Of a stretch of DNA of 64,000 nt, positions 8,032 through 26,774 are shown piece after piece (positions within the stretch are counted from its first letter, which is position 1; each line of letters starts with the position of its first letter). Below the pieces are notes generated by a model. It did no database searches. It saw only the letters and a list, made by a program, of their open reading frames with translations, and was not told the origin of the DNA. Position numbers and translations under genes: made by a program. Source of the stretch: Halobacillus ihumii (GTDB lineage Bacteria; Bacillota; Bacilli; Bacillales; Halobacillaceae); the NCBI RefSeq assembly GCF_902726645.1, contig NZ_CACVAO010000002.1, positions 1 through 64,000 on the forward strand, in the 5' to 3' direction.

Positions 8032-8037
8032 ATATAA

Positions 8038-8069
8038 ATCCCCTTTTCCTTTTTGGAAGGGGATTTTTT
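8038..8069 (+). terminator. Rho-independent terminator of cadCA
   Basis: Inverted repeat AATCCCCTT / AAGGGGATT followed by TTTTTT, seven bases after the cadA stop. Confidence 0.9.
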
Positions 8070-8159
8070 AATAATTAAACGATCGTAATCTCGTTAAAAC
8101 CGAATAAATCATTTTTTTGAGTGGAACATATAGGGAAGGAAGTAAGGGGAGGATCAAAC

Positions 8160-9014
8160 ATGAAATTGAACAGCCCTAGGTTTGGAGCATGGTTTAGTAC
8201 ATTTGCCTATTTATTGGTTGCTGCCATTAAAGTTATAATTGCTTTACAAGCTGCCTCAGTTGCGTTATTAGCAGACGGCTTAAATAATCTTACCGACATT
8301 GTCACCTCTGTAGCGCTTATTATTGGGTTATACATAGCTAAGAAAAAGCGTGATGATAATCATCCTTATGGACATTTACGGGCTGAAAACGTAGCTTCCC
8401 TATTAGCCTCATTTGTCATTGCTATGATCGGTTTTCAAATCTTATTTGATACAACTCGTTCCATTATTAATAATAATTACGCTACCCCAGACCCCTTAGC
8501 TTCTTGGATTGCTTTTGGAAGTGGAGCCTTCATGTTTATTGTTTATTTTATAAATCGTAATATAGCTTCTAAAGCCAATAGCCAAGGTTTAAAGGCCATT
8601 GCGAAAGACAACTTTTCCGATGCTTTAGTGAGTATTGGTACGGGGATTGGAATATTAGGAGCACAGTTAGGTCTTTCTTGGTTGGATCCGATTACAGGTG
8701 TTGTGATTGGTCTTGTAATCCTATGGGCAGCATGGGAGATTTTTGAGGAAACTTCTTTGATTTTAACAGATGGAATTAACCCTGATGACATACAAAAATA
8801 CAAGGAGACTATTTCCAATATTGATGAAGTCGAAAGTGTGAAAGACATAAAAGCAAGGACTTCAGGTAGTAAGGTTATAATAGATGTAGCCATTACACTT
8901 CCCCCAAATCTTACGGTTAAAGAAGTTACCCATATTGTTAATAAGATAAAAGAATTAACAAAAGAAAAGCATGATAGTCTTGTCACGTTGGTAGAAACTG
9001 TTCAATGCAAATAA
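8160..9014 (+). CDS. Cation diffusion facilitator (CDF) family metal exporter
   Basis: Proton-coupled divalent metal exporter (284 aa). Membrane half with the CDF metal-site motifs 'ADGLNNLTD' (helix 2) and 'DNFSDALVS' (helix 5), plus HPYGHLRAE between helices 2 and 3; a cytoplasmic C-terminal domain covers about residues 205-284. ATG at 8160 follows GGGGAGG by 7 bases. It is a separate unit from cadCA, with terminators on both sides. It lacks the histidine-rich tails of the CzcD-like exporter at 12.4 kb; substrate (Mn, Fe, Zn or Cd) cannot be told from sequence. Confidence 0.9.
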   Translation: MKLNSPRFGAWFSTFAYLLVAAIKVIIALQAASVALLADGLNNLTDIVTSVALIIGLYIAKKKRDDNHPYGHLRAENVASLLASFVIAMIGFQILFDTTRSIINNNYATPDPLASWIAFGSGAFMFIVYFINRNIASKANSQGLKAIAKDNFSDALVSIGTGIGILGAQLGLSWLDPITGVVIGLVILWAAWEIFEETSLILTDGINPDDIQKYKETISNIDEVESVKDIKARTSGSKVIIDVAITLPPNLTVKEVTHIVNKIKELTKEKHDSLVTLVETVQCK

Positions 9015-9038
9015 AGTTACTTGCCTTCAACGTCTGAA

Positions 9039-9072
9039 AGCCGCATTTTCAATAAAGAATGCGGCTGTTTTA
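9039..9072 (+). terminator. Rho-independent terminator after CDF gene
   Basis: AGCCGCATT (9039-9047) pairs with AATGCGGCT (9058-9066), followed by GTTTT. Confidence 0.85.
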
Positions 9073-9167
9073 AAAAATTATTTCGTTATTTAGCAATCGC
9101 GTCCCTTTTGTGGAACTAGAATATGTACATTTAAAGGAGTAACCTACTCCTTATGAGATGGCATTTG

Positions 9168-9368
9168 TCAGCCACCTTCTATACAAGTAGTCGTTGAACT
9201 TCCAACAATAGCATTGAGTTCTTGAAGTAAAGGAGTCAACGCATTAGCTTCAACCATTGTCCCTAAAGCTTTTTCAGCTAGTGGAATATTGTGTTTCTTA
9301 AAAACATCGACTGTATTCCCCCAAACTTCAACGATAGCTTTGGGTGACATATTTGATTGTATAATCAC
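9168..9368 (-). CDS. Small protein with DUF542/ScdA-N-like fold signature, cysteine-poor
   Basis: 66-residue protein starting at GTG 9368 behind AAAAAGGAGG. The pattern 'SPKAIVEVWGNTVDVFKKHNI' resembles the N-terminal domain of ScdA/RIC iron-sulfur repair proteins (DUF542), but the cysteines usual in that domain are missing and only one cysteine remains near the C-terminus. It begins just inside the tail of the YnfA-like gene, so the two are cotranscribed. Function unknown; the family link is tentative. Confidence 0.55.
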   Translation of the reverse strand: MIIQSNMSPKAIVEVWGNTVDVFKKHNIPLAEKALGTMVEANALTPLLQELNAIVGSSTTTCIEGG

Positions 9369-9384
9369 TTTGATAACCTCCTTT

Positions 9385-9705
9385 TTATTGGCGTGGGGCA
9401 AACAACATAACAGAAACTCCAACTAAGCATATACCTGCACCTACCCAGTCATAAAAATCAGGCGTTTTTTTATCAATACCCCATCCCCAAAGGACAGATA
9501 ATATTATAAAAACACCTCCGTAGGCCGCATAAACTCTCCCGAAAGAAGGGAACGTTTGAAACGTAGCTATAACACCATACATAGCTAAGGATAAGCCACC
9601 TAACATCCCCCAATAAAAAGGTTTTCCTTCTCTCAGCCACAGCCAAATAAGATACCCACCACCAATTTCAGCTAACCCAGCTAAAAGGAATAATACAATT
9701 GTCAT
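9385..9705 (-). CDS. YnfA/UPF0060 family small membrane protein
   Basis: Four hydrophobic helices in 106 residues, with '[17 protein letters not shown]', '[17 protein letters not shown]' and '[17 protein letters not shown]', which are hallmarks of the UPF0060/YnfA family. It is related in size and topology to small multidrug resistance transporters; the role is not firmly established. ATG at 9705 follows GAGGG; the TTG two codons upstream is less likely. Cotranscribed with the small gene at 9168. Confidence 0.88.
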
Positions 9706-9822
9706 AACCAACCCTCACTTCATTTTTTACCGTTTTTAACCTTTTACATAAGACATTCTACAAACTTGCCCGGACAAAAAGATGGATTGGCCATAAAGGG
9801 GAATTCTCTTCTTTCACATGAT

Positions 9823-10197
9823 CTAGTCAGGGATATTTGAAGTTAACTTCCAGCTGAAGTATAAGGTGTGTAGCAATAACAATAGGATTAGACTTATAGC
9901 GAAAAACAAAAAGCTAAAGCTGTAAGGGGTATTAATAAAAAGCGCTTGTTGGAGTGAAGTAACTAACATAATCACCCCTACACTAATGGTTGTTTTAAGA
10001 AGGAGCTGCTTCAACCTTTGGGGTTTACTAAACAATCTCATAAGAGTAGTGGCTGTAAACCAGTATATAACAACCAGTGCAGTAAGAAAGATCATGTTTT
10101 TAGAATCTAATAGTAAGCCCGTAATGAAACTGGAAATATAAAAAAACACAATGTAAATAACAATAAAAAAATAAGGAAGTTTATGAGCTGATTTCAT
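9823..10197 (-). CDS. Hypothetical four-helix membrane protein
   Basis: 124 residues with four predicted membrane segments (about 8-28, 37-55, 68-85, 93-112) and short basic loops. AAGGAG lies 12 bases before the ATG, slightly far. It lies downstream of copD on the same strand after a stem-loop. I recognise no family. Confidence 0.6.
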   Translation of the reverse strand: MKSAHKLPYFFIVIYIVFFYISSFITGLLLDSKNMIFLTALVVIYWFTATTLMRLFSKPQRLKQLLLKTTISVGVIMLVTSLQQALFINTPYSFSFLFFAISLILLLLLHTLYFSWKLTSNIPD

Positions 10198-10241
10198 GAA
10201 ACATAGATTCTCCTTTTTATAGTTAGAATATTTAATGTTTC

Positions 10242-10270
10242 AAGGTCTTTTGTCACAGACAAAAGACCTT
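10242..10270 (-). terminator. 13-bp stem-loop after copD
   Basis: AAGGTCTTTTGTC and GACAAAAGACCTT form a perfect 13-bp stem with a 3-base loop just after the copD stop. The T-run behind it is weak, so termination may be partial. Confidence 0.6.
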
Positions 10271-10274
10271 TATA

Positions 10275-11423
10275 TTATTGAATTCCTATCATCAAAGCAA
10301 AATAGAATGATAAAACCATAAGTAAGGTAGCGCTTGAAGTCATGGCTACCGATTCCCGTTTAACGGCTGCCATAATAGTTATCGTCGTAAATAACACGCC
10401 CATAATACCTAAAAGAAGACTCATGGGTCCAAAAGAAAAGCTTACGTTAAATATTCTTAAAGACTCTGCATTTTGAATGGTTTCAACTAGATCACTTTGC
10501 GTAAAAGTTGTGTATAGGGGGGAAGCCCCATAAGATTTTATTAAACTATAGATTTGATGCGGAGGCCATGACTGCCCCATGAATGCGGTCAGGCCAAAGA
10601 TAACCAAAGCATACATACTTTCTAATCGTGCCCACTTCAAGGGGTTAAAAGATACATCATTGTTCCTTTTTCGAAAAATAATTCCATTAATTATCGCGAA
10701 TAATACTAAGGAAACCATGAATAAATGCTTAAAAAGCAAGGCCTGTCCATAGTTTACGGTTAAACTATTCTGATACTCTTGAAAAATGGAGGCATTAGGA
10801 TCATCATATGAATTAATATCAATACTCATCGTAAAATAACCTGCCACAGAAACAATAATCAAACAAACCACTGCAACTGGGGTAAACCATTTAAGGAATC
10901 GTAACCAATTCTCCTTTGTTTTGGAAAACCAACTTGCTACAAAAAGAATCCCTATCCACACTATGACAGCTAAAAAGTGAAACGTATGGGCTAGAAAACC
11001 CTGCCATTCTGTAATCGTTGCTGCATGACTGGATCGTGTGTAGCCAACAAGCATTAACAATGTCAATAGTAGAGCTAAACCAAGCAATATAGGATTAGTT
11101 TTGAAGTTTTTAGGTAGTAAAACTCGAATAAGAAGCGCTGAAATAAGGGTAATGAACACCCAGGCTTGACCCACTTCAAACGTGAATAAGACATTTTTAA
11201 AAATGAACCACATGTCACGATCTCCCGAAAAGATGGCCGTTGTTCGAATAACGGGAAATAAAGCAGCTAGAGGGATAACCCCTGTTGCTATAAAAAGTAT
11301 CTTTTTAGGTATGTTAATCGGTGGTTTATGGGTATCCGGCACGAGCAGAAGGATGAGTGCCCCGACTAATACTGAAAAAGAAATATATAATAAAATTTCA
11401 GCTAACGTTAATACAATTATCAT
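10275..11423 (-). CDS. copD: CopD-family copper transport membrane protein
   Basis: Inner-membrane protein (382 aa, about eight to nine helices) of the CopD/YcnJ family, thought to move copper across the membrane with its CopC partner. Histidines in 'SHAATITEWQGFLAHTFHFLAVIVWIG' and 'YGQALLFKHLFMV' fit the family. ATG at 11423 lies 13 bases after the copC-like stop; an ORF extension to 11489 overlaps copC and is rejected. In B. subtilis the equivalent YcnJ carries CopC and CopD in one chain; here they are two genes. Confidence 0.87.
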   Translation of the reverse strand: MIIVLTLAEILLYISFSVLVGALILLLVPDTHKPPINIPKKILFIATGVIPLAALFPVIRTTAIFSGDRDMWFIFKNVLFTFEVGQAWVFITLISALLIRVLLPKNFKTNPILLGLALLLTLLMLVGYTRSSHAATITEWQGFLAHTFHFLAVIVWIGILFVASWFSKTKENWLRFLKWFTPVAVVCLIIVSVAGYFTMSIDINSYDDPNASIFQEYQNSLTVNYGQALLFKHLFMVSLVLFAIINGIIFRKRNNDVSFNPLKWARLESMYALVIFGLTAFMGQSWPPHQIYSLIKSYGASPLYTTFTQSDLVETIQNAESLRIFNVSFSFGPMSLLLGIMGVLFTTITIMAAVKRESVAMTSSATLLMVLSFYFALMIGIQ

Positions 11424-11436
11424 GTTGAACCCACCC

Positions 11437-12051
11437 TTATTGTCTTTTCTTACTAAACAGCATCCAGAACAATAATAAGGCCCCGGCAATGAGTATAACT
11501 ATAATCATTTCATACATGAATGGAGATGGATTGGATTCATTTTCACTCTTAACCTGCTGTGAAGCATTTTTTCCATCCGTCCCTTGTTGTTTGGAGGCTG
11601 AATTATCCGGGTTTTCGGTTTCTGAATTTGCCTTTTCTTTTTGTTCAGAGTTGCCTGAATTCTCTGTGTCAGGTGATGCCTCTTGAGTCGTCGAAATCGT
11701 AAAGCTATATTGTTTTTCAATTAAATGGCCATCGGCCCCAAGGATCTTCCACTTTACCTGGTATGTACCTGATGCAAGGTTTTCTTTAAAACTAGCTTCC
11801 AAAGTATTACCTTTGACGGTAACTGAGTTTGGTTCAATACTTTCTCCCTGTTGATTCAGAACATACAGCGTACTTCCTTTTTCAATTTTCGTGTTAAAAG
11901 ATAATTTGATACGTTCTACGGGCTCTTCTAGAGTTGCACCATCCTTAGGTGTGGAATTTTCTAATACAGAGTGTGCTTCTATGGTATTCATTGGGATCAT
12001 ACTTACCATCAATGCTAATACTATAAACGAAGCTAAGAGTTTTTTATTCAT
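11437..12051 (-). CDS. copC: CopC-domain copper-binding protein, membrane-anchored
   Basis: 204 residues: signal peptide (cleavage probably after 'IEA', leaving an N-terminal HSVLENSTP that is the usual first copper ligand), a CopC beta-sandwich up to about residue 122 ending in 'GADGHLIEKQYSF', a charged Ser/Asn/Glu-rich linker, and a C-terminal membrane helix (about 178-198) with a basic tail. Directly upstream of copD in the same operon. It likely binds copper outside the cell and hands it to CopD. Confidence 0.9.
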   Translation of the reverse strand: MNKKLLASFIVLALMVSMIPMNTIEAHSVLENSTPKDGATLEEPVERIKLSFNTKIEKGSTLYVLNQQGESIEPNSVTVKGNTLEASFKENLASGTYQVKWKILGADGHLIEKQYSFTISTTQEASPDTENSGNSEQKEKANSETENPDNSASKQQGTDGKNASQQVKSENESNPSPFMYEMIIVILIAGALLLFWMLFSKKRQ

Positions 12052-12396
12052 CGAATCTTCCTTTCATCTTTTCTTTTTTAAAAGGAGTTTTCTTAAGTCT
12101 CTAACAATAGCATCCATTTCACCGACATCTACTCCTATCTTTTTATGACTCCTCCTTCCTTCTGGCGTGACTTAAAGAAACTGGTCCCGTGAATGAATCC
12201 ACCCGTAAAGGTCTATTTACCTAACATGTTTCTTCAATTTAGATAAATGGAATGAATATCCTTTCACTCATGCTTGCCCCCTTTTTCTTAACGAATTCTT
12301 AATCAGAATAACACCTTAACAATAAAGAACGCTTTCAAATCTGATAATTGTTTGAAAGTGTTCAAAAACGAAAGATAGGTCACTTTTTCCCCCAAA

Positions 12397-12425
12397 AAAA
12401 TGCCCCCAAGGCTAAGCAATGGAGG
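12397..12425 (-). terminator. Terminator after czcD-like gene
   Basis: Inverted repeat with ATGCC/GGCAT arms directly downstream of the stop at 12434; minus-strand reading ends in TTTTTTT. Confidence 0.7.
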
Positions 12426-12433
12426 CATACGAT

Positions 12434-13387
12434 TTAATGGTCATGTTGGTGGGAATGATCTTCACCTTCATTTTTACATAAAAGAGAATCATCATGAGGG
12501 TGCTCACGTGTTTCCATTTGGACCGTTACATGGCCTATATCTTTATCCTTTAGTTGGGATTCAACATTTCTTAATAGTTCCTGACACTCTTGGACTGTTA
12601 AATTCTCCGTAACTACAGCATGACAGGAGAGAGCATTTTGCCCACTTGTAATACTCCATACGTGTAGATCGTGAATACCTAGAATCTCGGGAATCGCTTC
12701 GATCGTGTCGGTAACGTCTTGAATGTTTACGTTTTTAGGTGTGCCTTCCATTAAGACGTGAACAGAATCTTTGGCTACACGCCAACCACTAATTAATACA
12801 AGGACAGCTACAATGACACTTGCGAGAGGGTCGGCCCACCCCCATCCTAAGAACATGATGAGTAGCGCAGCAATAACAGCACCCACAGATCCTAATAAAT
12901 CACCTAATACATGTAGAAAAGCAGCTCGCAAGTTTATGTTTTCCTTGGTATCCCCTTTACGCATCAAAATCCACGCAACAATTACGTTTACAAGGAGACC
13001 AATAAAACCTATCGTAAGCATTCCAGCAGAAGCAACTTCAGGCGGATCCGAAAAGCGCTGATAGGCTTCATAGAAAATGTACAATGCAATTAATATGAGT
13101 GTAACCCCGTTGAAGAGGGCGGCTAGGATTTCAAATCGTTTGTATCCATAAGTCTTGCTATAGTTGGCTACTTTTTCTCCCATTATAAAGGCTAAAAGGC
13201 CAACCCCTAACGATACGGAGTCACTTAGCATATGTCCTGCGTCAGCCAAGAGAGCAAGACTGTTGGTTAAGATTCCCCCAATGGCCTCCACAATCATATA
13301 CAAAGTAATAATAATAAAACTAATCATTAAAGCTTTTTTGTTTGCGCCATGCGTATGATCATGACCATGATCGTGTCCCAAACTCAT
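12434..13387 (-). CDS. czcD: CzcD-like zinc/cobalt CDF exporter
   Basis: CDF exporter of the CzcD/ZitB type (317 aa). Histidine-rich N-terminus (HDHGHDHTHG) and C-terminus (HSHQHDH) flank six helices with 'LLADAGHMLSDSVSL' and 'HVLGDLLGSVGAV', the two HxxxD metal-site motifs. The C-terminal cytoplasmic domain contains 'GIHDLHVWSITSG'. Start at 13387 is supported by AGGAGG. The regulator gene czrA lies 35 bases upstream on the same strand, forming a czrA-czcD operon. Confidence 0.94.
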   Translation of the reverse strand: MSLGHDHGHDHTHGANKKALMISFIIITLYMIVEAIGGILTNSLALLADAGHMLSDSVSLGVGLLAFIMGEKVANYSKTYGYKRFEILAALFNGVTLILIALYIFYEAYQRFSDPPEVASAGMLTIGFIGLLVNVIVAWILMRKGDTKENINLRAAFLHVLGDLLGSVGAVIAALLIMFLGWGWADPLASVIVAVLVLISGWRVAKDSVHVLMEGTPKNVNIQDVTDTIEAIPEILGIHDLHVWSITSGQNALSCHAVVTENLTVQECQELLRNVESQLKDKDIGHVTVQMETREHPHDDSLLCKNEGEDHSHQHDH

Positions 13388-13422
13388 ACCTCCTATGTTA
13401 ATCCCTTATTTTCAAATGTTTA

Positions 13423-13803
13423 TTAACAGTGACTTGCGTGCTTAATCGTTTGGTTTAGCATATTCATAACATGTTCATCATCATGGGAATAATACAGACT
13501 TTTCCCATCTCTGCGGAATTTTACTAACCGTAAGTTCTTTAGAAAAGTCAGCTGATGGGAAACTGTTGATTGACTTAGGCTTAGATGTTCAGCAATTTCG
13601 TTCACAGCATATTCATTTTGAAACAGTAAATGGAGAATACGAATTCTCGTTGGATGACACAATGCTTTAAAGGTTTGTGAAACGACAAATAATGTTTCCT
13701 CATCAAGTTCTTTTAGGGACCTGTCGTCCACTTTATCCTCAAAATCATGTAACTCCGTTACCACGGCTTTACCATTATTTTTGGTTTGTGTTGCATCATT
13801 CAT
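13423..13803 (-). CDS. czrA: ArsR/SmtB-family zinc/cobalt repressor CzrA
   Basis: 126-residue winged-helix repressor with an intact alpha5 metal site (D109, H111, H122, H125 in DDEHV...KHASH) and no alpha3N cysteines, as in CzrA and unlike CadC at 5.5 kb. Recognition helix: [13 protein letters not shown]. It precedes czcD, the usual autoregulated pair that responds to Zn(II), Co(II) or Ni(II). GGGAGAG precedes the ATG. Two ArsR sensors of different metal-site class in one cargo region suggest two independent regulons. Confidence 0.92.
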
Positions 13804-13835
13804 AGCAATATCTCTCCCTTTCTGAAGTTATCCCC

Positions 13836-13871
13836 TACATATGTATACATTAACATATGAACATATTACAC
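13836..13871 (-). promoter_or_regulatory. Probable czrA operator/promoter region
   Basis: AT-rich stretch with two CATATG hexamers and an imperfect dyad around ATATGAACATAT, resembling SmtB/CzrA-type TGAACA boxes. It lies 33-68 bases before the czrA start. The exact operator is not resolved. Confidence 0.4.
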
Positions 13872-13966
13872 GCATGATAAATCAACGTCAAACATAAATA
13901 AGTTATTAGGGGGATACATTCATTTTACGCTTCTGATTAATGTCAAAACAACTATGGAGAGATAGA

Positions 13967-14683
13967 ATGGGAACAGCATGGATTATGGGGGCTTTTGCCT
14001 CTGGATTAGGAATAGGAATCGGCGGAATTTTTGCTTGGATTTTTAAAGGAGTTCAACAAAGCTTTATATACGCTTTGTGCACGGGCCTTATCATTGGATT
14101 GTTAGCTTTTGAAATGATTCCTGAAAGCCTCCGCCTGGGCGGATGGGGGGTGTTTTTTGTAGGGGCCATTGCTGGAATCACTCTTTTTCGGTATATTCAT
14201 CACTCTATTGATAAGGTTACAATCATTACCCGAAGCCCTCAAAAAGATATCTTTGTTCGAACAGGTATTATCTTAACCATTAGTATTTCTGTTCATAATT
14301 TTCCAATGGGATTTGTACTTGGTTCAAATATAGGAACAGAGTTAGCTGGTGCCATGGTGCTAACTCTCCTTTTACATAACATTCCCGAGGGGATTATCAT
14401 ATTCACACCCTTATTTTTATCGGGGTTTGGGATTCTAACCTGGATGTTGTGTACAATGGTTGTTACGCTCCCCATCATCATAGGTTCTCTATTGGGACAA
14501 TTTATCGATATTAGTTTCCCTTTTTTGTTAGCCTTCATTGTAAATATAACGATTTCCATTATTTTCATGGTTGCCATACAGGAGATTTTTAAAGAGTCTA
14601 TACAACAATCCTCATGGACGTATAGCCTTATTGTGGGTATGGTAGGAATTGGGGGGATCTATTTATATTTAACATTAAGCTGA
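13967..14683 (+). CDS. ZIP-family metal transporter
   Basis: Eight-helix ZIP transporter (238 aa from ATG 13967; an upstream ATG at 13940 has no ribosome site, whereas GGAGAG precedes 13967). The two ZIP motifs are visible: 'HNFPMGFVLGSN' in helix 4 and 'HNIPEG' in helix 5. ZIP proteins usually import Zn, Mn or Fe. It diverges from czrA, so both may share the operator region. A second, more canonical ZIP protein is encoded at 57.2 kb. Confidence 0.85.
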   Translation: MGTAWIMGAFASGLGIGIGGIFAWIFKGVQQSFIYALCTGLIIGLLAFEMIPESLRLGGWGVFFVGAIAGITLFRYIHHSIDKVTIITRSPQKDIFVRTGIILTISISVHNFPMGFVLGSNIGTELAGAMVLTLLLHNIPEGIIIFTPLFLSGFGILTWMLCTMVVTLPIIIGSLLGQFIDISFPFLLAFIVNITISIIFMVAIQEIFKESIQQSSWTYSLIVGMVGIGGIYLYLTLS

Positions 14684-14838
14684 GCCAAAATAACCTCTTT
14701 AAAAGAAAACATTCAAGAGAAAGTATCCTTACCATCTCACTTTATTTACAGTTTAAGATTGAGGGGAAAGGATATAAAATTGAAAAAATATATGTCTCTA
14801 ACTCTTAGGACCACTAATTAAACCCTACTAAAGCCACA

Positions 14839-14872
14839 GGCTGTTGAGATGATCCCAACAGCCTCTTTTTTA
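14839..14872 (+). terminator. Rho-independent terminator
   Basis: GGCTGTTG (14839-14846) pairs with CAACAGCC (14856-14863), followed by TCTTTTTT. Confidence 0.88.
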
Positions 14873-15237
14873 TGCTACTGATTCAACTACCGAAGGGAAA
14901 ACCATTATTTAACGATGGAACGGCCATATTATAGGATCACCCTTGCTCGTCTTATCCCTTAACGAATTGGGATTATGTGTAAGTTGTTTAGAGAAAACAT
15001 AAAGTGACCATCATGATAGTGGAAACATTCGCCAGATTTATTACAAAAGGGTTAATGATTTTAAGTATTCATTACAATCATTTAATCTATACACTCTAAT
15101 TATAGGTAGTGATATTATGTAATCTAGCAACCTTAATACTTATTGAGGAACCATAAAGCTTGATACATTCAAAACTAGCATTTTTATCTAGTTAAGTAAC
15201 TTTGTGGTACAGAAAAACTTTGGACAGGGGTATTAAC

Positions 15238-16401
15238 ATGAAAAGAATCACATTAATTGTAGCCATGATGGTTATCATGAATGTATCAATTGTTTCCACA
15301 GCTTTTGGTGCATCAGATAAATTCCAGCCAAATTTAATGAGCAAATCTGCTATCATGATAGACTCAGAGACGGGCGAAGTGCTCTACGAAAAAAATGCCA
15401 ATAAAAAAATGTATCCGGCTAGTCTAACCAAAATTGCAACAGCTATCTATGCGATAGAAACGGGTGATTTGGATGACGTTGTCACCGTTAGTGAAAATGC
15501 AAGAAACACGGTGGGCACAAAAGTCTATTTGGAGAAAGGAGAACAAGTTACCCTAAAAAAGTTGCTTCAAGGGCTGCTGATTAATTCCGGTAATGATGCG
15601 GGTGTTGCGATTGCGGAACACTTGAGTGGGAGTGTAAAGCGTTTCTCCACTGAGCTCAACCAATATTTAGAAAACGTCATTGACGTTAAAAATACCAATT
15701 TTGTAAATCCACACGGTCTTTTTGATGCTCAACATGTAACTACAGCGAAGGATTTAGCTAAAATTACACAGTATGCAATGAAGAATGAAGTGTTTAGAGA
15801 AATATTTGGCACAAAGAAACTAAAATGGAACGGCGAATCATGGGATACTACCCTTTATACTCATCATAAATTAATGAGGCAAAATCCATATAAAGGAGTA
15901 ACTGGTGGAAAGACAGGATTTGTTAACCAATCAGGATTTACTTTAGCAACTACCGCAGAAAGAGAAAACATAAGCTTAATAGTAATCACTCTAAATAGCA
16001 ATTTCCAAAGAGGGGCTTATAACGATACTACAAAACTACTAGACTATGGATTCAAAAATTTTCAAACTTCTACTATTCCCGAAGGAACCACGTTTATAGT
16101 TGATGGTGTAAAGTATAAGGTCCCCGAAAGACTATCCTATACAAAACCCTTGAATAGAAAGGTAAGTAAAGAAATAAAAGATGGAAAGTTAAAGATTATT
16201 GATCAAAAAAATGGTTCAATCCTAACTTCCCTTCAATTGGATAAGGTTGAACCTAAGAGAGAAAAGGTATTAAAGGAACAAGATTTAACATCTAAGAACG
16301 TTGATACCGTAGGGGCAGTTCTCAGTAACCTCCCAGGGGTAGTATCACTCCTTGGTAAGGCATTGCATCACCCGTTATTATTGAATACTCTTTCGCTCTA
16401 A
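15238..16401 (+). CDS. dacF: D-alanyl-D-alanine carboxypeptidase (DacF-like, S11 family)
   Basis: Penicillin-binding protein that trims the terminal D-Ala of peptidoglycan stem peptides. Signal peptide (about residues 1-23), then the three S11 motifs: SLTK (SxxK, near residue 62), SGN (SGNDAG), and KTG (GGKTGF). Length (387 aa) fits DacF/DacA. ATG at 15238 is preferred over the upstream in-frame start at 15202. In B. subtilis DacF acts during sporulation in the forespore; the C-terminal anchor here is weak. It ends at a long-looped terminator. Confidence 0.87.
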   Translation: MKRITLIVAMMVIMNVSIVSTAFGASDKFQPNLMSKSAIMIDSETGEVLYEKNANKKMYPASLTKIATAIYAIETGDLDDVVTVSENARNTVGTKVYLEKGEQVTLKKLLQGLLINSGNDAGVAIAEHLSGSVKRFSTELNQYLENVIDVKNTNFVNPHGLFDAQHVTTAKDLAKITQYAMKNEVFREIFGTKKLKWNGESWDTTLYTHHKLMRQNPYKGVTGGKTGFVNQSGFTLATTAERENISLIVITLNSNFQRGAYNDTTKLLDYGFKNFQTSTIPEGTTFIVDGVKYKVPERLSYTKPLNRKVSKEIKDGKLKIIDQKNGSILTSLQLDKVEPKREKVLKEQDLTSKNVDTVGAVLSNLPGVVSLLGKALHHPLLLNTLSL

Positions 16402-16963: not shown

Positions 16964-17460
16964 CACGTACAGACTGACCGAAAAGCAAAGAACGCTTTCC
17001 GTCATTCTGTACGTGTCGCTTCTCCCTAAAATTAGCGATAACTACGGACTGTCAATTTTTTAAGGGGTGAACGAGTCGGCATTGATAGCAAAATCGAAGA
17101 GGGCACACCTTGAAGTCAAAAAGCAGGACTTCAAGGTTGCGTTAGATACGATAAGCAGACTTGACGTCTGCTTTTTATTTTTGCTTCAGCATTTCTGTCC
17201 CTTTTGCATTCCGAATCGTATCACTCGCAAGTCCACTAAGAAAAAAACAGGTCGGGTCCCGTATGCCCTACCTATTTTTTCTAAGTGAACGAGCTAGCAG
17301 CGCAAGGGGCAAAAAAACTTTTCGCTTTTAATAAGTAAAAGCGGAAGCGAAAACTTTTTTGTGCGGAAACCCTTGCGCTGCTGTCTATGCTCCAGATTCG
17401 TTCTCCATGTCAAAAGGGCAGAAATAATTCCCTTTGGGGAACCATCCGTTTCGGATGCAA
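16964..17460 (+). other. Long structured non-coding element, copy A
   Basis: About 500 bases without a convincing gene, homologous in layout to 38507-38963. Ordered parts: 9-bp hairpin CACGTACAG/CTGTACGTG; block TCGCTTC...AAAAT...CGATAAC; GGGTGAACGA (17076-17085); 11-bp hairpin ACCTTGAAGTC/GACTTCAAGGT; terminator-like GCAGAC/GTCTGC plus TTTTT (17155-17176); block CTTTTGCATTCCGAATCGTA (17201-17220); hairpin (17234-17287) with CCGTATGCC in its loop; very long hairpin (about 17291-17390); AAAGGG/CCCTTT; and ATCC-GTTTC-GGAT (17444-17456). It ends just before the operon at 17522. Could be a large ncRNA, an attenuating leader, or single-stranded-DNA promoter/origin. Confidence 0.7.
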
Positions 17461-17521: not shown

Positions 17522-18037
17522 ATGAAGAATGAATTCGTTAATCCAGTAGTGGTTCCAGATGAAAATTCGAAGGTTATAGCGAAGGCCGAGGTTCCTGAAA
17601 GAGTTAAAGCGGTCGCAAAAACATTAAAACCACTTGTTGGGAAAAATGTTTCCCTAGCTGTTTTAGAGAGAGAAGTGTTTAAACACAAGCCTATCCTTAC
17701 AATGAATGAGCTTAGGGACATCACCAACCGTGAAGGTGAGATTGATTTTTTGGATAAAAGTTTCCCCATCTATATTAAACAAGGAGACGATTGGGTTTAT
17801 CCCCATTACACCATGTTAATTAATCTTCATTTGATCGAGGATAACGGGGGTTTCTCTGATCAATCAGTAGTCAGGGTCATTTCCCTTAAATACAAGGGTG
17901 TTGAGGAGACAGTACAGGGATTGCGTAGTGTGTACGTAGTTTTATGTGGAATATCAGAACAAGTGGAGAAGGAAAAAGAGCAAGAAAAGGAAGATAGACG
18001 TTCTATAAAAACCCGAAGCTATGGGCCTAAACTGTAG
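17522..18037 (+). CDS. Hypothetical plasmid protein behind element A
   Basis: 171-residue soluble protein with no signal or membrane segment and a highly charged C-terminal tail (about residues 148-163, E/K/Q-rich coil). ATG at 17522 follows TAGGAGTG. The larger open frame back to 17387 runs through the structured element and is not used. First gene of a plus-strand group that includes a SprT-like protease. Family not recognised. Confidence 0.65.
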   Translation: MKNEFVNPVVVPDENSKVIAKAEVPERVKAVAKTLKPLVGKNVSLAVLEREVFKHKPILTMNELRDITNREGEIDFLDKSFPIYIKQGDDWVYPHYTMLINLHLIEDNGGFSDQSVVRVISLKYKGVEETVQGLRSVYVVLCGISEQVEKEKEQEKEDRRSIKTRSYGPKL

Positions 18038-18104: not shown

Positions 18105-18122
18105 TTGAACCATATGGTTCAA
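18105..18122. promoter_or_regulatory. 18-bp perfect palindrome upstream of sprT-like gene
   Basis: TTGAACCATATGGTTCAA is a perfect inverted repeat, and a half-site TTGAACCA recurs at 18133-18140 immediately before the ATG. A TATAAT (18088-18093) lies 12 bases upstream. This is a likely operator for an element-encoded repressor. Confidence 0.6.
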
Positions 18123-18140
18123 AAATGGAGGTTGAACCAA

Positions 18141-18839
18141 ATGCCTGAAATTCATGAGGTCAATATAGATAAAATTACGCAGGAGCTGCACAATGCCTTT
18201 TACTTATTCAATAAACACTATTTCAATGATGAGTTGCCGACTCCGGCAATCACCATACAATCATCAGGACACAAACGGAAATCGATGGGATGGTGTACGG
18301 TTGTACCCGTATGGGGAGATAAAGAAGGCAAAACCAAAATGTATGAAATCAACTTATCAGCAGAGTTCCTTGATTTGGACTTTCACGAAACGATGGACAC
18401 CTTGCTTCATGAAATGGTACATCTTTATCACAAAGTTAATGACATTCAGGATTGTAGCCGTAAAGGGACGTACCATAATAAACATTTTAAAAAGAAAGTG
18501 CTAGAAATTGGATTTGAATATCAAAGCGACAAACCCGACCCTACTCACGGTTGGACTTATGCAAGGTTGGGGCAAAAAGCAAAGTATGAAATTTCAAACA
18601 TGAATATAAACGCTGATGTATTTACCATCTCACGGCGTGGTTCTATGTACTTTAATGCCTTAGAAAACGGTCAATCAGCAGAAGAAGCCGAAGCCCAATC
18701 AGGGAGGGAAACGTCATCGGCAGGTAAACCATCATCCTACAAGTGGGTTTGTTCTGGCTGCGGGCTTATTATGCGGTCATCAAAACAAGAAGTGAATGTA
18801 AAATGTGGTGACTGTGATATAACCCTAGAAAAGCAATAA
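18141..18839 (+). CDS. SprT-like zinc metalloprotease domain protein
   Basis: 232 residues. The SprT/Spartan-type zincin motif HEMVHLYHK (about residues 90-98) is complete, and the C-terminus holds a four-cysteine zinc ribbon (CSGCG...CGDC). SprT-like proteins are common on conjugative elements; eukaryotic Spartan cleaves DNA-protein crosslinks, so removal of proteins from incoming DNA is a reasonable but unproven role. ATG at 18141 follows GGAGGTT. A palindromic operator lies just upstream. Confidence 0.85.
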   Translation: MPEIHEVNIDKITQELHNAFYLFNKHYFNDELPTPAITIQSSGHKRKSMGWCTVVPVWGDKEGKTKMYEINLSAEFLDLDFHETMDTLLHEMVHLYHKVNDIQDCSRKGTYHNKHFKKKVLEIGFEYQSDKPDPTHGWTYARLGQKAKYEISNMNINADVFTISRRGSMYFNALENGQSAEEAEAQSGRETSSAGKPSSYKWVCSGCGLIMRSSKQEVNVKCGDCDITLEKQ

Positions 18840-21495: not shown

Positions 21496-21750
21496 TTATT
21501 TTTTATTTAAAAAATAATTCTTGAATTTTTTAAGGTAATATTTTTTTACCATTACAAAATTCTTTTTAGTAAACATCTCACGGTTCTTTTGTTTAAACTT
21601 ATTCCATGTTTGATTCGCTTCATTGTCTTCTTTTATCATTCTAATTTGTCTTTTTACGTTAAGAGTCACGTAAAAGCTAACCACTGCCAAAAATAGATAA
21701 GTAAATACATTATATGGACCAATTGTACTCTCCAAAAAATCCATTATCAT
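21496..21750 (-). CDS. Small membrane-anchored transfer protein
   Basis: 84 residues: one membrane helix (about 13-31) and a basic cytoplasmic tail rich in lysine and aromatics (KKYYLKKFKNYFLNKK). Its ATG overlaps the stop of the VirB6-like gene (TAATG), indicating translational coupling. Family not recognised. Confidence 0.65.
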   Translation of the reverse strand: MIMDFLESTIGPYNVFTYLFLAVVSFYVTLNVKRQIRMIKEDNEANQTWNKFKQKNREMFTKKNFVMVKKYYLKKFKNYFLNKK

Positions 21751-22595
21751 TATCTTGTTCGCCCTCTAACCATGGCAAAGCGAGTAGCCATTTTCCCCCC
21801 ATTGATCATGGTTCTGGAAGAACCTGTTCCATACCACATATGACGGAGAACAGATGGTCCGCGAATGATTAACACACACATGCCAATTAGCAACATGAAT
21901 TTCCACCATGTAAAGCTGTCACTTGTTAAAATTTCTGTTATGGCAACCATCAACGCCATTTGTACAATAATTGTTGTTAGCTGCGATAAAACTTCACGCC
22001 ACCAAACCGACATGTAATTGTTTTCATCTGAACAGACAGAGATAGCAGCCCAAATTGAAAGTAATTCCAGAACCAGTAAATCGACATGATAGATACATAT
22101 TTTGATTGTAAATGCAACAATAGCAACTGTTACAAACCCTAAAACGATTAGAAACACAAAGCCATCACCGATGATGTCGCCAATACTTCCTTTTGATAAG
22201 TAATCCGTTACACCTTCTGCGGTGTACTTTCCCATTTCCCCAAACATCCAAGTTCCAAGGGGTGTTATTATGTCTCTAACAAGAAAAGTTAAAATGAAAG
22301 GGAGAATGGGTATCAATGCAGAAGCTAGCACAGCACGAAGGAGAATATCCGATAACCCAACTTGATGGGATGCACCTGCATTAGTTTGAATCGTATATTC
22401 AAGGATTTTCCATAGAAGAATCACGAGCATAACTCCTGCACCAAAGCTAATAAATAATAGATACGTTTCATTTAAGAACCCTGTCAATCCTTTGTGAGTA
22501 AAAACTATGTTTGCTAACCATTGTAGGGCTGATTCTAAGACATCCGAAATTAAGTTCTCAAAGAATTCCTTTATATTATCCGTTAAATTAAACAC
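21750..22595 (-). CDS. VirB6/TrbL-like polytopic conjugation channel protein
   Basis: 281 residues with about six or seven membrane helices and a basic C-terminus (MATRFAMVRGRTR). Topology, a central hydrophilic loop after helix 3 and the position after the coupling-protein genes match TrbL/VirB6-type inner-membrane channel components (TraL of pIP501/pSK41-like systems). It likely helps form the membrane passage for the transferred DNA-relaxase complex. Confidence 0.75.
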   Translation of the reverse strand: MFNLTDNIKEFFENLISDVLESALQWLANIVFTHKGLTGFLNETYLLFISFGAGVMLVILLWKILEYTIQTNAGASHQVGLSDILLRAVLASALIPILPFILTFLVRDIITPLGTWMFGEMGKYTAEGVTDYLSKGSIGDIIGDGFVFLIVLGFVTVAIVAFTIKICIYHVDLLVLELLSIWAAISVCSDENNYMSVWWREVLSQLTTIIVQMALMVAITEILTSDSFTWWKFMLLIGMCVLIIRGPSVLRHMWYGTGSSRTMINGGKMATRFAMVRGRTR

Positions 22596-22614
22596 TCAAC
22601 TCCCTCCCTCATAT

Positions 22615-23100
22615 TTAACTAACCTTATTGATCTTCCATCCCCCATCCTTTAAAACCATTTCTATTTTCAATGCACTATCTCTTAAAGTAGATTCAGTAG
22701 CATCTATCCTTAACAATACTTGCTTTTGTTCCTCGTTTATTCGGTAATCAGTTATTTCATAAATGTTCCTAAAAGTAGTTTTTTTCTCCTTAATTTTTGT
22801 GTTAAGAAAAAAAGCAGATTCACTTTGATAAGATTTGTTATATTCTTTTCGGTTATCTATAGCTTGATAGACCTCCTTTTTGAAATCATCAGTGAAATAA
22901 TCAATCATTTTTTTATCAACAGCATTTTTGATTTCTCCATTGTTGAGACTTGCAATGGATTCTCCATTCTCATAAAGTGAGAAAAAGTCCTTCAGTGCTT
23001 GCTTGCTCTCTTTTGCTGCTTTCTCAGGGTTAAACCCTCCCCCACCACAAGCAGCAAGTAACAATGTCATTACTAACAATGGCAATAAGTATTTTTTCAA
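22615..23100 (-). CDS. Transfer-operon lipoprotein
   Basis: Lipoprotein signal with lipobox LLAAC-GGGG: Cys near residue 18 would be lipidated. The body is a compact alpha/beta domain with 'VLKDGGWKINKVS' at the end, reminiscent of NTF2-like/DUF4878 folds. TTG at 23100 is the best start because AGGGAG lies 8 bases upstream; a GTG nine bases earlier overlaps that site. Probably a surface or exclusion component; role not known. Confidence 0.7.
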   Translation of the reverse strand: MKKYLLPLLVMTLLLAACGGGGFNPEKAAKESKQALKDFFSLYENGESIASLNNGEIKNAVDKKMIDYFTDDFKKEVYQAIDNRKEYNKSYQSESAFFLNTKIKEKKTTFRNIYEITDYRINEEQKQVLLRIDATESTLRDSALKIEMVLKDGGWKINKVS

Positions 23101-23112
23101 CGTCAACACTCC

Positions 23113-24615
23113 CTATCCGTTCGCCTCTTGATTAAAGAAGTTTTCGGCAGCATCCATCTGATTCTCTTGTTGTTCTTCCCTCTTTTGTTCCTGACTTTGA
23201 TCGAAGGCTTGTATTTTTTCTTCAAACGCTGTCAGTACTTCTTCTGTCGGTTCATTCTCATAATCAACTTGACGAACTAAAAATTTATTGTCTTGATTTG
23301 ATTGGGGGATAATACCCGGGAACAATTTATATTGAAATGCTTTATTAGCAATTACAGGCCTTTTGCCAGCGATAATCACAATTGATTCGTGATCGGGCAT
23401 GGTAAGGATTTCATCCAAGTTTTTTAAATTCCTGCCTGTGTAATTAAAACTTTCAGATGCGGAGTTACTTTCACTTTTCCCCCTACTTTTTGATGTTGAC
23501 CCTGTTTCCACCTTGACTGTCGCTTTACCCATTTGTTCCATGAAAAATTTACCACTTGTTTCATTCACGTTCCCCAAACAGATTTTCACCGCACAGTTAC
23601 CAATAATGGATTCCGATTTTTCTTTACCGTAAATCGCCTGTAGCTGAGTAATATTTTGAACAATCGTTCCCACACCGATACCATAGCCACGGCATGTGGC
23701 TAAAAATCGTTCATAGTCATCAAATCGCCCAAGATTGGGAAACTCATCTAAGATAAAAAAAACAGATTGAGGGAGCTTTGCATTGTTCTCTGCACCGATA
23801 CGATAAAGTTCATTGAACATCTGATTAAAAAATAGGTTAATCAACCCTTCCCATGTACTATCCATCACGGGAATAATTACATAGACAACTATTTTTCGCT
23901 TTCCTACATCCCCCACAAAAAAGTCAGAGAATGAAGTAAAAGCAGCAACCTCATCATCTACAAAATCGCCAATCGTAGTAAGTAAAGAGATAACGATGCT
24001 TGCACGGGTTTCTTCCTGTGACTTCATAAAACCGAGTTCATAAGCACGTCTGGCAGGGTTACGCCGATCAAGCATTAAAAACTGTTCATCGAGTTCACTT
24101 ACACCCTTGCTTTTGTCTCTTTCGGGGTCAAATTCCTGCAAAAAGTCCAGTATCCCTGTCATATTCTGTTCTGATGGCTTCATTTCATTGATTGAGTAAA
24201 GAATCAATGCTTTGAGTAAACTTAATTGTGAGTTATACCAAATATCCTTTTTCTTCGGGTCGTTTTTAGCTGCAACAATGGTATTAGCAACCGTTGCTGC
24301 ATGTATATCTTTCTTTACGTAATCAAAGGGATTGTAACGATCACTGCTAACCATATTACTGAAGTTGACGACACGAACATCATAGCCTTGTTTGCGCTTG
24401 ATTTCAGATGTCTTCTCATATACCTCACCTTTCGGGTCGGTGACCACTATCGAACACTCTCGTTCATTCAGCACATTTGTCATCACATAACTTTGCGTTT
24501 TATAAGAACCTGGACCACCTACAACAAAGTGGTTACGATTCGGGGCACTACTGTCTGTTGGCTGTATCATGAGATTTTTTTGAAATTCCCCTAAGATGAT
24601 GCCGTTCGTTTTCAA
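23113..24615 (-). CDS. VirD4/TraG-type coupling ATPase without its own membrane anchor
   Basis: 500-residue coupling protein that brings the relaxase-DNA complex to the secretion channel. Walker A is an atypical GGPGSYKTQ (residues 33-41, Tyr where Gly is usual), followed by 'VVTDPKGE' and Walker B 'FFILDEFPNLG' (about residue 285). No N-terminal membrane helices are present; these are supplied by the gene directly upstream. TTG start at 24615 follows GGGAGGGG. A Q/E-rich C-terminal tail follows residue 455. Confidence 0.92.
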   Translation of the reverse strand: MKTNGIILGEFQKNLMIQPTDSSAPNRNHFVVGGPGSYKTQSYVMTNVLNERECSIVVTDPKGEVYEKTSEIKRKQGYDVRVVNFSNMVSSDRYNPFDYVKKDIHAATVANTIVAAKNDPKKKDIWYNSQLSLLKALILYSINEMKPSEQNMTGILDFLQEFDPERDKSKGVSELDEQFLMLDRRNPARRAYELGFMKSQEETRASIVISLLTTIGDFVDDEVAAFTSFSDFFVGDVGKRKIVVYVIIPVMDSTWEGLINLFFNQMFNELYRIGAENNAKLPQSVFFILDEFPNLGRFDDYERFLATCRGYGIGVGTIVQNITQLQAIYGKEKSESIIGNCAVKICLGNVNETSGKFFMEQMGKATVKVETGSTSKSRGKSESNSASESFNYTGRNLKNLDEILTMPDHESIVIIAGKRPVIANKAFQYKLFPGIIPQSNQDNKFLVRQVDYENEPTEEVLTAFEEKIQAFDQSQEQKREEQQENQMDAAENFFNQEANG

Positions 24616-24616
24616 T

Positions 24617-25024
24617 TTAGTCCCCTCCCTTGGTTTCTATTGATTCCATTAATTCATGAAAGACATCCTTTCTTGTTGCTCCTTTAAATTCGTTGCCTGT
24701 AAATATCTCCTTCGGTTTAGCAAAGCGAGCTGAACCATGATACCGTTCGTTCGGATCGACTTCCCACCCTTCTTTTTCCTTTCCTAATGTAACTGCAAGG
24801 TAAGCTGAATAAAATATACTTCCAATCAGCAGCATGTAAAAAAGAGGATTTGGATTCACATCCAAAGGATTCAATAAAATAGTGAAAGCTTTATCTTTAA
24901 TCATGTTTAGATTGAGATTCCCCATGTTTTCAGCAATGAAAGGAAGCAGGTGTCCGATTTGCATGGTGATCTCAAAAAGGAATAAAAAGCAAAGAACGAA
25001 AACCAATATCTTTTGCTTTATCAT
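24617..25024 (-). CDS. Membrane-anchor subunit of the coupling protein
   Basis: 135 residues: two membrane helices (about 5-22 and 60-80) then 'GSARFAKPKEIFTG', the sequence that normally follows the membrane part of VirD4/TraG proteins. The gene ends one base before the ATPase gene. This matches the two-protein coupling arrangement described for pIP501 (TraI with TraJ). ATG at 25024 follows GGGGGAG; the longer frame to 25102 overlaps the upstream gene. Confidence 0.8.
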   Translation of the reverse strand: MIKQKILVFVLCFLFLFEITMQIGHLLPFIAENMGNLNLNMIKDKAFTILLNPLDVNPNPLFYMLLIGSIFYSAYLAVTLGKEKEGWEVDPNERYHGSARFAKPKEIFTGNEFKGATRKDVFHELMESIETKGGD

Positions 25025-25037
25025 TTTAAACTCCCCC

Positions 25038-25601
25038 TTAACTTTGGCTGACAGGTTGGATATACCCGTATGATTCAAGGGCTGTGATGATATAGCCATC
25101 ATTTTTTGTTTTCACACCTGCTCGGAAAAGCTGATGCCGTTCACTCGGTGTGCTGCCCTCGATTTCGTAAGAACTCGTCATATAAACAAGGACATCCTTT
25201 GTGTTTTCTTTATCTGGTGGAGAAGAAGCAACATAAACCTTGATTCCTTTGACGTTATTCTGAAATTTAACCTTCGGAACTTCTCCCCCACCCATGCCAT
25301 TTAAAGTTTGAATAACGTCTTTACTAACTTCTCCTTTTACGACTTCAAATCGTGTTAAATAATCTTCATTTCCATAATCGAAAAGCGTTTTAAATGTATC
25401 CTTAATGAACTTCTCTTTGTCTTGTGATAGGGATTCTTCAGAACCCTTTTCTGTCTTACCTTGTTTCTCCCCTTTTGTAATTTCTCTTTCCTCTTTTTCA
25501 TTCGCTGATGCTTGATGATCGGTACTTAACGCACCGATATAGAGCAATAAGAAAATAACATTTGAGAGAATCAACGCTCCTATAATGAAGTATTGTTTCA
25601 C
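25038..25601 (-). CDS. VirB8-like transfer protein
   Basis: 187 residues: N-terminal membrane helix (about 5-24), a charged linker (residues 30-65, E/K/Q-rich) and an extracytoplasmic alpha/beta domain with 'VLVYMTSSYEIEGSTPSE' and 'AGVKTKNDGYIITALESYG'. The pattern fits the NTF2-like fold of VirB8/TcpC family proteins. It sits between the cell-wall hydrolase and coupling-protein genes as in related Gram-positive operons. Confidence 0.7.
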   Translation of the reverse strand: MKQYFIIGALILSNVIFLLLYIGALSTDHQASANEKEEREITKGEKQGKTEKGSEESLSQDKEKFIKDTFKTLFDYGNEDYLTRFEVVKGEVSKDVIQTLNGMGGGEVPKVKFQNNVKGIKVYVASSPPDKENTKDVLVYMTSSYEIEGSTPSERHQLFRAGVKTKNDGYIITALESYGYIQPVSQS

Positions 25602-25613
25602 CTTATCTCAACC

Positions 25614-25745
25614 CCATTAATATTGGTTTTAGTGTTATATTTAGTGTTAACTTATGTATTAGTTTTAATACTAAGTTAAGTACTAAACCTAACTTTATTA
25701 TTAAACCTAATGTAGATATTATTGTTGAATTTAATTTTAACTTTA
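25614..25745. repeat. Hexamer-periodic AT-rich tract in the transfer operon
   Basis: About 22 consecutive 6-bp units fitting roughly RRTNYT (for example AGTGTT, AATACT, AGTACT, GATATT) with no break in phase, between the VirB8-like gene and the hydrolase gene. The same pattern recurs at 36490, 37235 and 38296. It forms the only sizeable non-coding gap within the operon. Confidence 0.7.
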
Positions 25746-26774
25746 AAAATTTGCAATTCTACCAAACCCAACAAAATGTTTTGACCAGTAGCTGCTGTTT
25801 AAATTTGAAAACTCGATACCTGAACCGTTTGCATTGAACATTTTCCCATTACCGACATAAATACCAACATGCGTAATATGTTTTTGCGTTTCATAGGTTC
25901 CCGTAAAGAAAACCAAGTCCCCTACTTGCGCTTGCCCGGGTGGAATCTTCATGCTAGCAACGTATTGGGTTTGTGCTGTACGAGGAATATTGATGCCTGC
26001 CTGCCCAAACGCCCACATCATTAGACCAGAACAATCAAAGCCGACCGATGGGCTTGCCCCTGCCCACACGTAAGGGTCTCCTTCGAACCTAACCATGTTG
26101 TCAAGAATATTTTGCAGAGTAGCATTATCAGCCATTTTTATGTTGGTGTTGCCTTGATTGTTGCCGCCTGTTAAATTCTCCATGACATGGACTAAATATT
26201 GTGGGTCGCCGTAATCATCCCAACCCAAGCGTTTTGCTTGTTGTTGGGCGAATGTTTTGGCTAACTCCGGTGTATGCTTTCCTCCATGTTCAGCGATGAA
26301 GTCGATATAGCCAACACCGAAATTATAGCTTTGCACAATTGTTTTGAAATCGACTCCTGCTTCTTCACCTCTTTGAAGTAAATCAGCAAAATATTGTACT
26401 CCCACTTGAACACTTCTTATTGGATCTTGTATTGTATTGGGTGGTAATCCCAAGCTCTCTGATGCTTGCATAATATCCAATGTGTCAGAAGCTCCAAGTT
26501 CTTGAGCCATCAAAGCTAATAAAAACTCTGTATATTCGGCTACTCCATACTTTTCTGTATACGTTTCTAAGAGAGGTCTCCATTTGGCAATATAATCCGG
26601 AACTTGTGCCTTTCCGTGAATCGTTCCAACGTTTCCATAATTGGGTTGCTGTTCACTCTTTAAACCCAATGCGGCTGAAGCTAGAAGCAGGATTAAAATC
26701 AAAAATGCATACACGGCTTTTTTCCAGTGCTTTTTAGCGATCATTGCTCCTTTGACTGTAGCAACAGCAGACAT
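25743..26774 (-). CDS. Bifunctional peptidoglycan hydrolase (lysozyme-like plus NlpC/P60), CwlT-like
   Basis: 343 residues: membrane anchor (about 18-38), lysozyme-like muramidase/transglycosylase domain (about 60-190, catalytic Glu in 'ALMAQELGA', 'VQSYNFG'), linker, and an NlpC/P60 peptidase domain (about 215-343) with catalytic 'FDCSGL' Cys and 'HITHVGIYVG' His. The domain order equals CwlT of ICEBs1 and VirB1-like TraG of pIP501. It locally opens the cell wall for the channel. ATG at 26774 follows GGAGG by 8 bases. Confidence 0.93.
   Translation of the reverse strand: MSAVATVKGAMIAKKHWKKAVYAFLILILLLASAALGLKSEQQPNYGNVGTIHGKAQVPDYIAKWRPLLETYTEKYGVAEYTEFLLALMAQELGASDTLDIMQASESLGLPPNTIQDPIRSVQVGVQYFADLLQRGEEAGVDFKTIVQSYNFGVGYIDFIAEHGGKHTPELAKTFAQQQAKRLGWDDYGDPQYLVHVMENLTGGNNQGNTNIKMADNATLQNILDNMVRFEGDPYVWAGASPSVGFDCSGLMMWAFGQAGINIPRTAQTQYVASMKIPPGQAQVGDLVFFTGTYETQKHITHVGIYVGNGKMFNANGSGIEFSNLNSSYWSKHFVGFGRIANF

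Follow-up and report, generated by a model that had tools for sequence, protein, structure and literature searches.

Two EGeRS1 elements of Halobacillus ihumii carry a template-strand fold and are candidate single-stranded DNA promoters

The first 64,000 nucleotides of contig NZ_CACVAO010000002.1 of Halobacillus ihumii (hereafter the window; the whole contig comprises 90,108 bases) contain two structured elements, copy A (16964-17460) and copy B (38495-38963), each located directly upstream of the ribosome-binding site (RBS) of a plus-strand operon. Judged from their sequences, both are members of EGeRS1 (establishment gene regulatory sequence type 1). According to PMC8708921, EGeRS1 is one of two regulatory families reported for pLS20 plasmids, comprises leaders of about 420-750 bp in front of establishment operons of pLS20-type plasmids and pBS72, and acts by a mechanism its authors describe as unknown. 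The evidence presented here favours selection of the fold on the strand that templates the downstream gene, and thereby single-stranded DNA (ssDNA) over an RNA-like strand. Our best explanation, held with moderate confidence, is that copies A and B work as ssDNA promoters. During conjugative transfer, the minus strand, from which the A and B operons are read, would enter the recipient as ssDNA and fold, and two distant arms of the 3' domain would meet as an imperfect duplex. This would place a -35-like TTGAC(A) and a -10-like TACGAT on one face in a register of about 17-18 bp, which does not exist in double-stranded DNA (dsDNA). Host RNA polymerase would then initiate at a predicted start site within this fold, and the mRNAs of ardC and neighbouring genes would be made ahead of second-strand synthesis. 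Once the DNA is double-stranded, the fold would be lost and the genes switched off, giving transient expression, and a built-in terminator would block read-through from outside. The 5' domain perhaps primes the second strand.

The six sequence blocks named in a preliminary description of this DNA were all recovered in identical order in copies A (16964-17460) and B (38507-38963). Their starts in A and B are 17016/38543 (TCGCTTC), 17036/38563 (CGATAAC), 17065/38639 (GGGTGAACGA), 17210/38727 (TCCGAATCGTA), 17259/38777 (CCGTATGCC) and 17446/38949 (CCGTTTCGG), the last four blocks being unique to the two copies on both strands of the window. The quoted stems are present as well, namely GCAGAC/GTCTGC at 17155/17166 in A and GCAGGC/GCCTGC at 38682/38691 in B, together with ATCC/GGAT versus CTCC/GGAG. 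The limits proposed for copy A held, and those of copy B had to be shifted, its fold starting near 38495 and not at 38507. Both copies contain multiple inverted repeats and exceed their surroundings in GC content (0.44 and 0.43 versus 0.37 for the window). Compared to dinucleotide shuffles, their fold energies correspond to z-scores of -9.7 (A) and -8.9 (B), and the minus-strand 3' part folded as DNA reached -11.8 (B) and -11.5 (A).

Read on the sense strand, which is the plus strand for both copies, the element starts with a 5' hairpin, P0 (16964-17014 in A, from fold and alignment). It is followed by a conserved 5' domain with GGGCGGCAGCAC, TCG(C)TTC, CGATAAC, GTTCCTG and GAACGAGCCG, which spans 17016-17080 in A (with TCGCTTC, CGATAAC and GGGTGAACGA) and 38543-38648 in B. 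A terminator-like hairpin with a T-run (17153-17183 in A, 38681-38706 in B) separates this part from the 3' domain, which consists of a left arm CCTTTTGCxTTCCGAATCGTA (17200-17220 in A, 38716-38737 in B), two long variable hairpins and a right arm TTGAC...CGTTCTCCATGCAAAAGGGAAAAATAATCCCC (17373-17420 in A). Two small hairpins (17429-17455 in A, 38928-38957 in B) close the element ahead of the RBS, located at about 17464 and 38985, respectively.

The compensating changes reported between the two copies extend well beyond them: of the 20 consensus pairs in the 5' domain, 17 showed pair-keeping double changes among 37 relatives, a pair being counted as covarying if at least one sequence had changed on both sides with pairing kept. 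Covariation across many relatives supports the earlier proposal that selection acts on the fold itself, as RNA or ssDNA, and since relatives covary, decayed coding sequence was ruled out as an origin. In agreement with the preliminary description, no open reading frame (ORF) spans the element; small mechanical ORFs overlap the 3' edges of the copies. A tRNA search found none, and the Rfam covariance-model search of the window gave 0 matches at gathering score. This result, together with the many relatives that directly precede ArdC- or RadC-type genes, spoke against a suggested large noncoding RNA of the ROOL or GOLLD kind. ROOL, GOLLD and other large noncoding RNAs resemble copies A and B in size and fold complexity only; A and B differ by the missing Rfam match, the leader position and a fold selected on the other strand. 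The description as a two-copy element was right for A and B and incomplete for the genome, which harbours a third, truncated remnant (L142, G000:C6:100126-100214) with the terminator and left arm only. This remnant is truncated within its first long hairpin and directly follows a sequence that by eye resembles a group II intron end.

Next, we analyzed the relationship of the two copies to known and new family members. The blocks of copy B match four of the five pLS20 copies (E <= 2e-5), and the same four were recovered by a profile of the 5' domain. The fifth, EGeRS1-A, is published as devoid of the 5' part and was located by position alone. Distant blastn searches with A and B hit 36 and 43 plasmid records, respectively, most of them from Bacillus and its relatives and often with several elements per plasmid. 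In addition, a model of the 3' block built from 13 copies (R1) was run against genomes of the family (44, at E 0.01), the order (397) and the class (398, both at E 0.001). It gave matches in 9, 25 and 9 genomes, respectively, in overlapping sets. The EGeRS1 family now extends beyond pLS20-type plasmids. From the fetched loci, a 3'-block profile collected 64 copies, 39 of them with the 5' domain found, and removal of redundancy by shared 12-mers left 58. Of these, 36 possess the 5' domain; the other 22 were cut at a fixed distance, one being just 146 bases long. The relatives are not independent, and p-values are accordingly not read as probabilities. In the literature covered, EGeRS1 was treated by PMC8708921 only and an ssDNA-promoter proposal for it was not found, most subscription journals and preprints lying outside this search.

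Several family members deviate in organization or origin. In L083 (9729 + / 10068 -) and L066 (15532 + / 15684 -), the 5' and 3' parts are oppositely oriented, as if one half had been inverted. L093, L094, L095 and L096, from 2.6-3.6 Mb genomes of another order of the class, form a divergent subgroup in which CGCCCGGCGG replaces the CTTCGG hairpin. Plasmid pNe-1 (NZ_KP738729.1) is filed under Aeromonas and bears this otherwise Bacillota element; its host label may be wrong.

The central evidence concerns the strand on which the fold is selected. If RNA were selected, the sense strand should fold better and wobbles should appear as G.U pairs there; the opposite was seen. The template strand was more stable in 54/58 copies with DNA parameters and, on average, by 11.3 kcal/mol, compared to 2.3 kcal/mol for 12 dinucleotide-shuffled versions per copy. 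Both domains contribute individually, with the template strand better for 37/44 (DNA parameters) and 30/44 (RNA parameters) of the 5' domains and for 46/47 (DNA) and 43/47 (RNA) of the 3' domains. When G.T pairs were forbidden, the preference dropped from 12.6 to 7.5 kcal/mol and was still positive in 59/63 elements, indicating that wobbles and loops both contribute. Mismatches point in the same direction. In Watson-Crick-only DNA folds of 63 elements with both strands pooled, the 1x1 mismatches in sense letters amounted to A.C 108, G.T 19, C.T 253, A.G 77, C.C 130, G.G 33, A.A 86 and T.T 59, and with this excess of A.C over G.T it is the template strand that carries the more stable mismatches. 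The ten copies of the pLS20 group showed 25 A.C and no G.T mismatches, and nine 5'-domain pairs predicted from both strands were Watson-Crick in 349 cases, G.T in 3, A.C in 11 and other in 21. A simple mismatch count with short stems (A.C 101, G.T 62, C.C 56, G.G 10, C.T 109, A.G 41) can largely be accounted for by base composition and does not decide the matter by itself, which is why shuffles and controls were included.

The controls comprised RNA leaders, flanking DNA and ssDNA promoters. T-box leaders of the same genome (n=16, 13 above the Rfam cut-off) were more stable on the sense strand in 13/16 (DNA parameters) and 12/16 (RNA parameters) cases and carried 8 G.T versus 3 A.C mismatches (RNA parameters). 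DNA flanking the elements gave negative means both downstream (58 stretches) and upstream (56 stretches). As a control for ssDNA promoters, we used Frpo regions of F and its relatives, which are proven ssDNA promoters. The F-plasmid region before ssb is Frpo2 and required for early expression in vivo according to PMC9849209. Frpo2 of F and five homologues from E. coli plasmids had the template-strand sign in 6/6 cases, and the second F copy, called Frpo1 in the same source, brings the Frpo total to 7/7. A similar tendency is seen in the mismatches of these six Frpo2 regions (A.C 5 and G.T 2; C.C 17 and G.G none). The question which strand carries the stable mismatches offers a simple computational test to distinguish ssDNA elements from RNA leaders.

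An alternative explanation is an RNA leader, in which the folded sense transcript would control termination or translation of the operon as an attenuator or by antitermination. The terminator-like hairpins of A and B face the sense direction, the element lies just ahead of the RBS, its sense RNA folds well too, and the left arm has two possible partners (see below). Moreover, PMC8708921 reports that EGeRS1-B stops read-through in its native orientation and not majorly when reversed. Against this stand the stability of the template strand in 52/58 copies even with RNA parameters and the excess of A.C over G.T in the stems, unlike in T-box RNAs. In addition, in the fusions given in PMC8708921, promoter activity was absent from EGeRS1-B in both orientations and likewise from the 338 bp upstream of it. 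Based on these data, we regard an RNA leader as unlikely.

The proposed ssDNA promoter predicts promoter boxes that the fold brings together. In our own alignment, a TTGAC-like box lies 20 nt before the right-arm anchor in 54/58 copies and 21 nt before it in the remaining 4/58. In fixed register, the hexamers match TTGACA with one mismatch in 36/58 copies and with fewer in none; several others are shifted by one base. On the minus strand, TACGAT is found in 38 of the 47 copies with a readable left arm (of the 58). In copy B, this -10-like sequence occupies 38732-38737 and the -35-like TTGACA of the right arm 38875-38880, one base on from the fixed register; when the minus strand folds, the latter pairs with the left arm. 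The left arm of copy A bears the -10-like TACGAT on its minus strand as well. Minus-strand DNA folds of the 47 copies contained the -35-like box in 39, paired with the left arm in 38/39, and in our reading of these folds the boxes would be spaced by 17-18 bp along stacked helices. An A-tract/T-tract (AAAAACTTTTT) upstream in many copies could be an UP element. A consensus promoter scan of the dsDNA found no candidate in B, and the single candidate upstream of A was at chance level; the boxes being out of register in dsDNA fits the published absence of promoter activity. In two of six printed folds (L009, L071), the left arm takes another complementary partner, the 3' terminal motif CxCTTCGGAAGGCAAAA. 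The alternative partners are visible in copy B (38716-38737 versus 38945-38965), and both pairings look conserved. With two possible partners for its left arm, the element may be a two-state switch between these pairings.

MOBQ transfer proceeds from the nic site away from the repeat. The oriT of the window, an inverted repeat with the nic sequence TAAGTGCGCCCT on the minus strand (41062-41096), lies just upstream of a plus-strand gene for a MOBQ-type relaxase (MobA_MobL, NES_C_h; 41139-43145). Given this nic orientation and the direction of MOBQ transfer, the minus strand, running left, is the strand that enters the recipient, and it is the template of both operons. Repeat and nic fit the MOBQ oriT consensus in PMC3832669. 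The nic sequence likewise lies on the template strand in CP033047, G337:C6 and G222:C2 (with one, two and no mismatches), so that, including the window, the transferred strand is the template for 7 elements in 4 MOBQ replicons. No nic was found for G295, G024, G723 and G629 or upstream of mobQ in pPC03 and pNe-1. Elements share the strand of the MOBQ relaxase gene in 13/14 cases in 8 replicons, or 14/16 in 10 replicons when pPC03 (same strand) and pNe-1 (opposite strand) are added. This count takes the G295 chromosome as circular, includes one of the four pNe-1 places and covers contigs with a PF03389 match, with the PF13814 and PF03432 searches not used. Two broader rules failed. A restriction to the leading region does not hold, as several replicons carry elements on the trailing side of oriT and only the strand is constant. 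Likewise, a rule that all copies of a replicon lie on one strand is broken by G024:C2, where one copy precedes a split ardC, and by G031:C19 and G385:C2, which have loci with halves facing opposite ways.

Several observations weigh against an ssDNA promoter. Copy A reads TTGCGC at the -35 position, a poor match. The -10-like arm pairs with the right arm (at least 4 of 8 bases) in only 10/39 scored minimum-energy folds, and the -10 match, 4 of 6, depends on the junction model. Three other stretches of F that are not known as Frpo gave mixed signs (-9.9, +5.4 and -19.8 kcal/mol). RNAalifold on a tool-made alignment of 37 sequences (A2) did not separate the strands (-8.1 minus and -7.9 plus with RNA parameters; -0.6 minus and -1.9 plus with DNA parameters); our own alignment of 44 gave -11.1 for the minus versus -3.3 for the plus strand, and the strand conclusion rests on the per-sequence tests rather than on alignment energies. 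Concerning transfer, the pNe-1 element is opposite to mobQ, with a second relaxase gene on the element's strand, and one copy in CP095076 lies on the wrong strand. On both pLS20-type MobL plasmids, the elements oppose the relaxase gene (0/5 and 0/10 on its strand); in the MobL replicon G386:C2, element and relaxase share a strand. Most importantly, by the nick published for pLS20 (PMC5313138), the transferred strand is the one that codes for the establishment genes, and the printed nick sequence maps to the plus strand at 27781 of NC_015148. The authors of PMC8708921 judge an ssDNA promoter highly unlikely in the case of EGeRS1, pointing to the greater length of the elements, to a fold in which they saw no promoter and, chiefly, to a transferred strand that is non-template. 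Nonetheless, all five folded pLS20 copies are more stable on the template strand, by 25-33 kcal/mol. The pLS20 nick and the template-strand signature of its copies are thus in conflict. As an observation beside the wrong-strand copy on the MOBQ plasmid NZ_CP095076.1 (L122, 25644-26464), it precedes an ardC annotated as two pieces.

The pLS20 conflict also bears on two further explanations. The element might not act single-stranded at all. It could instead work in dsDNA, as a protein-binding site or an extruded cruciform, or give rise to a minus-strand antisense RNA. This would suit pLS20, whose template strand stays behind according to the published nick, and the better minus-strand fold also holds with RNA parameters. 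A cruciform, however, should show no strand preference, and the published fusions (PMC8708921) lack a promoter in either orientation; we consider this explanation very improbable. Alternatively, the fold could be a single-strand origin or priming site that starts second-strand synthesis on the transferred strand, with gene control being secondary. In the MOBQ elements, the fold is indeed on the transferred strand, and both transcription and primer synthesis reportedly appear in the title of the 1997 Frpo paper. The presence of several copies on one plasmid, often immediately in front of an operon (as also described in PMC8708921), argues against it, and the clash with the transferred strand of pLS20 is the same. 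Such a site appears improbable as the main function.

Compared to known systems, copies A and B share with the EGeRS1 elements of the pLS20 family and pBS72 the conserved blocks, inverted repeats, several copies per element, a GC content above the surroundings, the position just before the RBS of ardC-type operons and the lack of a convincing dsDNA promoter. They differ in lying on a MOBQ element with the transferred strand as template, whereas pLS20 has a MobL relaxase and the opposite strand reported. With the Frpo/ssi ssDNA promoters of F and ColIb-P9, they have in common the template-strand fold signature, the position before anti-defence-type genes and -35/-10-like boxes that folding could bring together. 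This likeness is one of features, and A and B have a larger multi-branched fold, an extra 5' domain and terminator, and Gram-positive hosts. In the single-strand origins (sso) of rolling-circle plasmids, folded ssDNA is read by RNA polymerase, similar to the role proposed here; in this comparison by description, A and B differ in their multiple copies tied to operons. PMC11541004 maps Frpo in leading regions and reports that similarity revealed nothing Frpo-like in the S. pneumoniae island it describes. For the question how Gram-positive plasmids switch on anti-restriction genes at entry, and for the EGeRS1 mechanism, the strand signature offers a concrete, testable answer. We see an even chance that EGeRS1 is a widespread Gram-positive family of ssDNA promoters, whose multi-branched fold would assemble a promoter from distant pieces only while single-stranded; in that case, the strand assignment behind the published rejection for pLS20 would have to be tested again.

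As a last step, we inspected the genes behind the elements. Forty downstream proteins, chosen as a selection of ORFs, comprised 17 ArdC, 11 RadC/JAB, one C5-methylase, one SprT-like and one PfkB protein and 9 without a family. RadC-like JAB proteins are thus the second commonest family behind the element (11/40) and are candidates for an anti-defence role. In the window, copy A precedes a plus-strand gene without a Pfam family (17522-18037), followed by a SprT-like gene (18105-18839). The operon of copy B starts with a short gene (39000-39206, plus strand, from direct reading), whose stop overlaps the start of ardC, the second gene (39206-40033, plus strand), encoding an anti-restriction protein with ArdcN and MPTase-PolyVal domains. 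Conjugation genes for a TrbL-like protein, a VirD4-like coupling protein, a lysozyme/NlpC protein and a TraG-like ATPase lie on the minus strand between the copies (21750-30175). Adjoining this mobile element, the region 952-16401 encodes ResB, CtaG, a P-type ATPase, CopD and cation efflux proteins for copper and zinc transport.
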